DNA from: Candidatus Zixiibacteriota bacterium
GTDB taxonomy: Bacteria > Zixibacteria > MSB-5A5 > GN15 > FEB-12
NCBI GenBank assembly: GCA_029860345.1
Contig: JAOUBJ010000020.1
Coordinates: 1 to 64,000, forward strand
DNA: 64,000 nucleotides
Reading direction: 5' to 3'
Positions 22,781 through 25,488 of this stretch are shown here, one piece after another (position 1 is the first letter of the stretch; every line of letters begins with the position of its first letter). A model generated the notes under the pieces. The model was not told where the DNA came from and did no database searches. It saw nothing but the letters and a program-made list of their open reading frames with translations. The position numbers and the translations under genes are program-made.

Positions 22781-23182
22781 GCAAGCTTACTTTTTTCGCG
22801 CTTCGCGCGCTTCCCCTGTCACCCCGAGCGGAGTCGAGGGACGTCGGGTGGCCGCCTCAAACCTTGTTTGGGGCGGGATATCTGTTGCGCAAGAACCACC
22901 CCCAAAGCGACTTTGAGGGTGCCACCCGGACCGTACAAATGGCTTTGTTTCCCGGAAAAAGTACTTTTCCGGCGGCTTGGGTTGGAGAGTCAGCAGGTTT
23001 ATTGGCTTTGTGGGGGTAGGCTGCAATTTGTTTTTCATTCGTGGGCATAGCATGGTCCTTTACCTACGGACCTGCCGTCAGTATTTGGGGGGAAGTTGTG
23101 GGGTTTTTGTGAAGTGGGGCTTTGTTCTTGGTAGAGGCAACTGGGGGGCTGGCCTGCAGTAATTGGCGCTAAGTCCGACGGA
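22781..23182. repeat. Intergenic repeats between the activator and the DUF4276 gene
   Basis: About 400 bases without a gene. Near 22797-22812 is a CGCGCTTCGCGCG palindrome after a T run (22791-22796). TCACCCCGAGCGGAGTCGAG lies at about 22819-22838, GGTGGCCGCCTCAAACC (inverse of the element at 6467) at about 22847-22863, and a CAAAGCGACTTTGAGGGTG element at about 22905-22923. The inverted pair CCGGAAAAAGTACTTTTCCGG lies near 22952-22972. The stretch 22980-23182 has no feature I can name. Confidence 0.5.
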
Positions 23183-23800
23183 TTACAGACCGGCCTCCTT
23201 TGCAAGTCGCAACATCTCATCCAGCATCTCTGCGAATCGAGGACACTTAGTCCGGACCGTTTCAGGATCGAGAACTCCAAACAACTCCACACCATGGGTT
23301 GTCTTTTTGTATGTGCGACGCGTTTTTTCACGATACAGTCGTTGAAGCAAAACACAGGGAGGTTCGTCGAAGTTCACGGTTTCAGGTGCTGCAACTCTAG
23401 CCGGTAAGCGCTTGCTGACCTCGCTGGGAAATATCTGTGGTTGGGCAAGAAGCCAGGCTTCGACCTCATGCACGGCAAAAAACTGGTGGAATTTCAAATG
23501 TCCGACTCTTTCCTCTATATGCTGTTTCCCCCAATCGTATCTTTCCTCCGATGAAGTTTTGTGACTTGGGTAGATAGTCGGTCCGTAGAGATCAAGAATG
23601 GCAATAACGGCTATTATATCTGGTTCCTTGAGTCGCAATTTAGCTTTCTTTTCTGCTTCTGAGTATAGATCGTTCCACCCTGTGAACTTTACAGGTTTGA
23701 TACCTACAGGTTTTGAGAGTCTCGGGTCCAACCAACGCTTCAGGAGTTTTGGCAAGCCCAATTTCTCTGTTTTACCCTCGCAAAACAGAAGGAACTTCAC
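23183..23800 (-). CDS. DUF4276-family (TOPRIM-like) protein, partner of the AAA ATPase
   Basis: A 205-residue protein. Its motifs fit DUF4276: CEGKTEKLGLPKLL (7-20) with E8 and E12, ILDLYGP (68-74) with D70, and VHEVEAWLLAQP (110-121). The first two match the Glu...Asp arrangement of a TOPRIM metal site, suggesting a nuclease, but activity is an inference. The start overlaps the end of the ATPase gene by four bases, so the two are translated together. Both run against the surrounding motility genes. Such ATPase/TOPRIM pairs are found in OLD-like and PARIS-type phage defence; a role here is unproven. Confidence 0.78.
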   Translation of the reverse strand: MKFLLFCEGKTEKLGLPKLLKRWLDPRLSKPVGIKPVKFTGWNDLYSEAEKKAKLRLKEPDIIAVIAILDLYGPTIYPSHKTSSEERYDWGKQHIEERVGHLKFHQFFAVHEVEAWLLAQPQIFPSEVSKRLPARVAAPETVNFDEPPCVLLQRLYREKTRRTYKKTTHGVELFGVLDPETVRTKCPRFAEMLDEMLRLAKEAGL

Positions 23801-24993
23801 GCCTCTTCCTCCAACTCACCAGATTGAAAGTAAGAACCTAGCGAGTATTCCTTTAGCCATTCTGCTAACTTGTCATCGTCAAAATTCCGTAAGCGTGTCT
23901 CGCCATTGTCCCACCTAACCACGGTTGTAACTGGCTGGGTAGTGCCAAAGGCGTCTAAGAACTGTGGGGAGTGCGTCGTCAATATGATTTGCGCGCGTTG
24001 TGACGCTTCGACGGCATATTCAGCCACGATGGGTAGCATAGATGGATGTAGCCCAGTCTCAGGTTCATCAATAGCTATCACAGGAGCTGGTGAAGGCGAA
24101 GCTAACACGGTAAGAAGGAAGAGGAATCTCAGCGTACCGTCCGAGAGATCAGAGGCCGATTGCGCACGCTTGAGGCTTTTCCACCGCACACGCAGCTCGA
24201 TTCGCTGATCCGAAGCGGGTGAAAACACAAGTTCTTCAAAATCGTCCCCAAAAGCCGCATTCATGGCTGAGTTTATGTCTTTCTTAAAGTCCCTGTCATC
24301 GGTGTAAAGCGTGTGGAGTACCGATATCAGGTTCTGCCCATCAGGTTCTACTCGCTTTTCGGGCCTTGACACCGATGGTTGGCGAATCATCGCATCTCGA
24401 TTAACGTGAATGTCGTGGTAGACACACCACGAAGCCAACTCCTCCTGAAACCTCGGAATCAGTTCGTTTACCGAAAATGGACCAGCGGCAAATGAGAGTA
24501 ACGTCTCTTGTTCTGGTACTTGATCTTCCGGGGCACTGAGCTTTTTCTCCTCAGGGTCGAAGACATGCGCGCGAAACTGATGCCGCTCCAAAAACTTAAA
24601 AGGCTGGTCTCTCTGGCCCAATTCTACCTCATAGAAGTTACCGAGAAGCTCATGATCGATGCGATACGCGCTACTTTGGCCAATTCTGCCCAATATCAAC
24701 TCATAGGTCAGTGATTTCCTTTCAGAGTCGCCGTACTTGTCCAAGGACGAGCCCTTTACTCTCACACAGATTTGGTCGTCAATACCGTCCCAGACCAGCG
24801 GCTCCATGCCACCGGATCTTTGAACATGTTTTCCCAATCGACCCTGAGCAGACACCGCCATAAGCTCAAGCAGCCTCAAAAGATTTGACTTGCCGGTGGC
24901 GTTCGGTCCAATCAGTACGTTTAGATTGCCCGGCTCCCATCTGATGTCGCGAAGCGATCTGAATCCCTTTACATCAAGTCCAATTATCTTCAT
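23797..24993 (-). CDS. RecF/SMC-like AAA ATPase (AAA_21 type)
   Basis: A 398-residue ABC/SMC-family ATPase. Walker A is GPNATGKS (29-36), the signature LSDGTLRFL (283-291), Walker B VIAIDEPETGLH (305-316) and the switch His in TTHSPQFLDAFG (His341). A helical insertion (about 110-245) separates the lobes. No C-terminal TOPRIM domain is fused, which leaves that role to the DUF4276 neighbour. The ribosome site is GGAG. Base composition appears less GC-rich than in flanking genes, and orientation is opposite, consistent with horizontal acquisition. A general DNA-repair role cannot be excluded. Confidence 0.85.
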   Translation of the reverse strand: MKIIGLDVKGFRSLRDIRWEPGNLNVLIGPNATGKSNLLRLLELMAVSAQGRLGKHVQRSGGMEPLVWDGIDDQICVRVKGSSLDKYGDSERKSLTYELILGRIGQSSAYRIDHELLGNFYEVELGQRDQPFKFLERHQFRAHVFDPEEKKLSAPEDQVPEQETLLSFAAGPFSVNELIPRFQEELASWCVYHDIHVNRDAMIRQPSVSRPEKRVEPDGQNLISVLHTLYTDDRDFKKDINSAMNAAFGDDFEELVFSPASDQRIELRVRWKSLKRAQSASDLSDGTLRFLFLLTVLASPSPAPVIAIDEPETGLHPSMLPIVAEYAVEASQRAQIILTTHSPQFLDAFGTTQPVTTVVRWDNGETRLRNFDDDKLAEWLKEYSLGSYFQSGELEEEA

Positions 24994-25208
24994 GTCTATC
25001 TCCAGTCAGCGCGTCTTCAATTCAAATACTCCAAGGCAATACCCTCCGAACCCAAGAGGTCGTAGGGTCTGTCTTTGTAACGCCACTACTATAGCTTATG
25101 GCAAAGATTCACAATCTCCCCATAATAGCAAGCAAAAACCCCGCAGTACACCCGTACACCGTTGTATGTGCGTCATCGGCTCGCCTCTCCCAACCCGCAG
25201 CTTTTCCC

Positions 25209-25235
25209 TTCAAATCCGCACAATCCTGCCGATAT
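25209..25235 (+). promoter_or_regulatory. Sigma-28-like promoter candidate, distal copy before motA
   Basis: TTCAAATC, 11 bases and GCCGATAT (25228-25235). The -10 element matches FliA well, but the -35 element is weak (TTCAAATC against TAAAGTTT). It is nearly the same as the copy ending at 25395. Confidence 0.4.
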
Positions 25236-25368
25236 ACTCAAGAAGAGGCTGAATCCGGTTGGCGGGTTCACGCCGCGGCACGCAGGCGAAGACGGAACCG
25301 CCCTACAAGAATTGTCGAAACCTCGCTTCGCGACCCCTTCGGGGCAGGGGTTTCGACCTACATTTCCC

Positions 25369-25395
25369 TTCAAAACAGCCGAATCCTGCCGATAT
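25369..25395 (+). promoter_or_regulatory. Sigma-28-like promoter candidate, proximal copy before motA
   Basis: TTCAAAAC, 11 bases and GCCGATAT (25388-25395), lying about 94 bases before the motA ATG. Like the distal copy it has a good -10 and a poor -35 element for FliA. Confidence 0.45.
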
Positions 25396-25488
25396 ACTCA
25401 AGAGGAAGCTGATTTGGGCAATAGCAGTTTTTGGCCAATGCCCAGCCGCTGAAATAGGTCGCTATACGTAAGAGGACGACGTTAGCAG

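Follow-up and report, generated by a model that had tools for sequence, protein, structure and literature searches.

A split OLD-like ATPase/DUF4276 gene pair, a candidate defence module of the HEC-01 type, in a flagellar gene cluster of a Zixibacteria genome

The gene pair and its site in a chemotaxis/flagellar cluster

Two overlapping genes on the reverse strand are found in the window analysed here (the whole stretch of 64,000 nucleotides from a contig of a Candidatus Zixiibacteriota bacterium), flanked by the gene of a sigma-54 response regulator and by motA within a chemotaxis/flagellar cluster. The genes on either side lie on the plus strand, with CheA, CheB, an HK and the sigma-54 response regulator on one flank and MotA, MotB, a FlgB-like gene, a flagellar rod protein, FliF and FliG on the other. 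The features of the locus are as follows:

22781..23182, no strand assigned: left spacer of the insertion with an ~85-bp dispersed repeat inside (by genome comparison)
23183..23800, minus strand: DUF4276 protein, HEC-01B-like, 205 aa, GTG start, predicted TOPRIM-like nuclease and proposed effector
23797..23800, minus strand: stop/start codon overlap of 4 nt (from the ORF coordinates), with translational coupling expected
23797..24993, minus strand: OLD/SMC-type ABC ATPase (AAA_21), HEC-01A-like, 398 aa, ATG start, proposed sensor/regulator
24994..25140, minus strand: region upstream of the pair, in a block conserved with the congener copy, probably carrying the promoter
25203-25252 and 25363-25412 (within 25203..25412), plus strand: two sigma-28-like motA promoter copies

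An earlier note on this DNA had described a reverse-strand pair overlapping by four bases and running against its neighbours, and the ORFs lie exactly where it had placed them; the same 4-nt overlap recurs in most intact homologous pairs. The ATPase matches Pfam AAA_21 (PF13304, E=1.6e-32) over the entire profile, and the effector matches DUF4276 (PF14103, E=8.5e-29) over nearly all of the 192 profile positions. The complete set of ABC motifs that had been read in the ATPase is borne out: Walker A GPNATGKS (K35), signature LSDGT (283-287), Walker B VIAIDEPE and H-loop TTHS (H341) are all present, with their key residues invariant or nearly so among 17 homologues, and no fused or hidden TOPRIM domain was found in its 398 residues. 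The ATPase model (AF2, pLDDT 89.8) gave Foldseek matches to SMC/Rad50 heads, GajA, OLD and PtuA. Against the copy in the congener G001, dN lies far below dS for the ATPase (0.093 and 1.27, NG86) as well as the effector (0.177 and 2.21), so that both genes are real and evolving under purifying selection; as dS is near saturation for both, the resulting dN/dS of about 0.1 or lower is approximate.

Comparison of the insertion site shows the pair to be present at this place in the window genome and in G001 only, where the copy (L002) has the same reverse orientation. The regulator and motA are adjacent, separated by a short spacer only, in 24 relatives including the closest congener, G002, and a position conserved throughout the phylum can thus be set aside; G003 is uninformative, its contig beginning just before motA. 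The conserved block, window 23179-25140, has 76.6% nucleotide identity to L002 and the flanks have 73.8%, so that by nucleotide identity the pair and its flanks are about equally diverged, and the pair has been resident in the genus long enough to diverge like its surroundings. In a tree of the flanking proteins the window genome and G002 form a group (support 94) outside which G001 falls. The simplest reading is that the pair was inserted once in an ancestor and later lost from G002, two insertions at one site being less likely. The genus thereby offers a natural comparison of presence and absence at a single chromosomal site.

The repeat-rich gaps around the pair had been taken as a sign of an island, a suggestion that does not hold, since the repeats belong to families dispersed genome-wide, with ~45-50 detected places each in the window genome. 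The hairpin-containing, intergenic ~85-bp repeat of the left spacer (about 22842-22928) occurs at ~50 places in its own genome, and was not found in the G002 spacer. On the other side, the motA promoter motif (TCAAA-N13-GCCGATA) is present in duplicate, and a dispersed repeat of ~50 bp separates the two copies, while the G002 spacer carries one copy of this sigma-28-like promoter. The pair itself is a solitary two-gene insertion. Among the 97 ORFs flanking 11 relatives, most PADLOC matches were generic, to kinases and the like, with a few candidate hits besides, and no clear defence island was found with the PADLOC models. With so few specific defence genes in the relatives' flanks, guilt by association is weak, and a defence-island context was rejected.

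Fold and candidate active site of the DUF4276 protein

The TOPRIM-like fold proposed in the earlier note for the 205-residue protein is predicted with high confidence (AF2, mean pLDDT 91.8, pTM 0.88), with a helical part after a beta-alpha core. In Foldseek, two chains of the Burkholderia pseudomallei OLD C-terminal region (6nk8; prob 1.00 and 0.99, TM 0.50 and 0.45) rank first among the PDB matches, GajA is among the weaker ones, and an RloB-like protein (prob 1.00) leads the viral matches. Because the Foldseek E-value is modest (1.8e-3) and lumazine synthase folds come next, with lower query TM, the fold assignment leans on the motifs too, and the fold evidence for a TOPRIM-like effector should be regarded as good, not overwhelming alone. 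Sequence searches, including a profile search at E<=10, found no solved structure for the effector. When DUF4276 and same-phylum OLD TOPRIM domains were compared as profiles (prob 83.6, E 8e-6), motif 1 (VEG-TE) and the D70 region aligned, and one family member from this phylum (L057), 36% identical, scores above the Pfam cut-off for DUF4276 as well as that for OLD-like_TOPRIM.

The acidic motifs EGKTE (E8/E12), DLYGP (D70) and HEVEAW (E112/E114), pointed out in the earlier note, are present and conserved; across 23 members with identities down to ~13%, D70 and E114 never vary and E8 and W116 hardly do. The spacing of the motifs, E8-x3-E12, D70 and E112-x-E114, mirrors the two-metal ligands of Bp OLD, E400-x3-E404, D455 and T506-x-E508 (PMC6755086), in a mapping made by motif order and secondary-structure position, not by residue-level superposition. 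Throughout the close subfamily Tyr (Y72, giving DLY) stands in place of the second Asp of the DxD motif of TOPRIM domains, an Asp that several divergent DUF4276 members keep; with this substitution, catalysis in the subfamily cannot be taken as certain. D70-L-Y-G is invariant in 11 homologues, those other than the window protein being 53-75% identical to it, and this invariance together with the low dN/dS of the pair argues that the DLY motif is under selection.

Relation to catalogued systems and distribution of the pair

Both proteins match the models of a candidate antiviral system that is already catalogued, though little studied. The ATPase is hit by HEC-01A (1.2e-63, residues 22-394) and the adjacent, overlapping gene by HEC-01B (1.4e-16, residues 3-200), and the assignment of the pair as an instance of HEC-01, not as a new kind of system, is well supported by these PADLOC-DB v2 profile matches to two adjacent genes. 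As there are many, divergent HEC-01B models and the effector matches the best of them moderately, the pair looks like a distinct sub-branch of HEC-01. The system is named for its Hma embedding, whereas the window pair is not in an Hma locus, its neighbours being chemotaxis and flagellar genes; embedding in Hma appears to have been the route of discovery and not a requirement for membership. In the literature searched, the term DUF4276 was not found, and HEC-01 in connection with phage appeared in a single paper, and there as a prediction only. HEC stands for Hma-embedded candidate, from a guilt-by-embedding preprint (10.1101/2024.01.29.577857) cited in PMC12988326, which states that several HECs, HEC-06 among them, have been shown to be antiviral.

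Compared with better-known systems, the pair is OLD-like but does not belong to PARIS, Gabija, AbiL or MADS. The effector model agrees with the superfamily in its TOPRIM-like fold and conserved Glu/Asp residues (E8, D70, E114), and departs from it in the second Asp of DxD, D70-L-Y72 standing in its place in the close subfamily. With class 2 OLD proteins and GajA it appears to share the TOPRIM and helical domains and the E-x3-E, D and x-E metal ligands; however, the ATPase and nuclease of the window are encoded in separate ORFs and no UvrD-like helicase GajB lies beside them, and membership in Gabija was rejected. PARIS likewise has separate genes for an OLD-type ATPase and a TOPRIM nuclease (AriA/AriB), and the window ATPase matches an AriA model (PADLOC, 1e-32), but the effector matches DUF4276/HEC-01B and not AriB in PADLOC, and AriB is absent among the 50 structural matches listed; as the effector is not AriB-type, PARIS membership was rejected too. 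Of the original proposal of an OLD/PARIS-like split pair, the OLD-like split and the TOPRIM fold are thus supported, whereas assignment to PARIS or Gabija is not, and the pair was already catalogued as HEC-01. Of the three outcomes that the earlier note would have counted against its reading, namely lack of a TOPRIM-like fold, genes often apart in relatives and a position kept throughout the phylum, none was seen. AbiL/RloA-RloB is again a two-gene system of ATPase and TOPRIM-like effector (AbiLi model 2.2e-20 in PADLOC, with the RloB-like protein as top viral structural match), but the effector here is DUF4276, with no RloB Pfam match at E<=1 and only a weak RloB profile comparison, and is not of the RloB family. 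The ATPase is also related to MAD3 (PADLOC 2.9e-28); its NCBIfam score of 99.8 bits lies below the equivalog cut-off of 420 bits, and the scanned neighbours are chemotaxis and flagellar, not mad genes, so that MADS was rejected as well.

The two genes are kept together across distant taxa. The genome contigs scanned contain 12 relatives of the effector from several phyla: the congener copy, and others in records named as Betaproteobacteria, Methylococcaceae, Desulfobulbus, Syntrophobacteraceae, Geobacteraceae, Armatimonadetes, Abditibacteriaceae, Planctomycetota and Paraliomyxa. In 11 of the 12, which are all the intact ones, the ATPase gene lies directly upstream. Within its own phylum DUF4276 was detected in 12 of 133 genomes (15 hits), and in two of the seven genomes of the genus, with an ATPase homologue adjacent in 14 of 14 assessable hits; the fifteenth (L015) was left out of this count, being near a contig end. 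It is a second, distant DUF4276 gene of G001, on contig C74. The twelfth relative from the contig scan, a truncated DUF4276 gene (L012:7965-8405), matches residues 68-201 only, lacks the first catalytic Glu and an ATPase, and is a decayed system. At the sensitivity of the searches, viral contigs, phage records and plasmids yielded no relatives.

In a tree of the pair the genus copies group together, the remaining close copies belong to other phyla, and the one further copy from the phylum is much more divergent; several internal branches are weakly supported. This placement of the closest copies outside the genus points to horizontal transfer of the pair.

Possible function of the pair

We consider it probable, on the analysis as a whole, that the locus is a HEC-01-type defence module of two genes that was acquired horizontally, an OLD-like system in split form in which a DUF4276 nuclease would be triggered by its ATPase. 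The ABC ATPase would act as both sensor and restraint, dimerising or oligomerising on ATP; on recognising an infection cue, it would license or release the TOPRIM nuclease, which could then cut nucleic acid by a two-metal mechanism with E8 and D70 binding metal A and E12 and E114 binding metal B. Abortive infection would be the most likely outcome. In PARIS, the AriA ATPase senses a phage protein and activates the TOPRIM tRNase AriB (PMC12409363, PMC12839542), and AAA proteins neutralise toxic TOPRIM partners in related split systems (PMC10440598); by analogy with these, the most likely role of the ATPase is to hold the nuclease back and then to license it. The effector model leans structurally towards OLD/GajA, whose members cut DNA (PMC10568477), and DNA therefore seems a reasonable first candidate substrate, with tRNA second. 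What we infer is the antiphage role, the trigger, the formation of a complex between ATPase and effector, and the choice of DNA or tRNA as substrate.

The same architecture could also serve a selfish module of the toxin-antitoxin kind, in which a toxic TOPRIM protein and a neutralising ATPase are kept mainly by addiction and not by protection from phage. A two-gene operon, a neutral intergenic insertion site and patchy presence would all suit such a module, for which the AAA-neutralised TOPRIM toxins of related systems provide a precedent (PMC10440598). We nevertheless regard it as unlikely: PARIS and AbiL, with this architecture, are defence systems (PMC12409363, PMC10440598), and the inferred clean loss in G002 is unlike strong addiction, although the idea overlaps with the defence reading. 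Somewhat less probable again is a housekeeping nuclease pair for DNA repair or the cell cycle, comparable to RecF or to OLD class 5, which functions in the cell cycle and not in defence (PMC12796447). Persistence in the genus under purifying selection could be read in this way, but the pair has empty sites elsewhere and is sparse in both phylum and genus, its closest relatives are in other phyla, and the models that match best in PADLOC are those of candidate defence systems.

Decay into an inactive remnant, with the nuclease dead by its DLY motif, would accord with the change of Asp to Tyr in the whole close subfamily and with the truncated copy in L012, and is very improbable given the invariant D70-L-Y-G and the constraint on both genes. 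A regulator coupled to the surrounding flagellar cluster, as the insertion between the sigma-54 regulator and the motA promoter and the same placement in G001 might suggest, is the least credible reading of all, as the pair lies on the opposite strand and the regulator and motA adjoin each other without it in the 24 relatives.

Returning to the defence module, the locus offers a specific case, intact and maintained by selection, of a candidate defence pair that is widespread and whose effector family still goes by the name of a domain of unknown function; to this the present analysis adds a TOPRIM assignment of DUF4276 with candidate metal ligands, statistics on the pairing, and evidence from empty sites. 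More tentatively, and with the balance of our judgement against it at present, DUF4276 could represent a distinct class of TOPRIM effectors with a DLY(G) active site, cutting a specific host RNA or DNA once the ATPase has detected infection. If so, it would form a separate OLD class (split, DUF4276-type) with a trigger and substrate of its own, spread over several phyla and without biochemical characterisation in the literature searched. The genus also holds a different effector of the split ATPase/TOPRIM type, an RloB-family gene in the congener G006 (L073).
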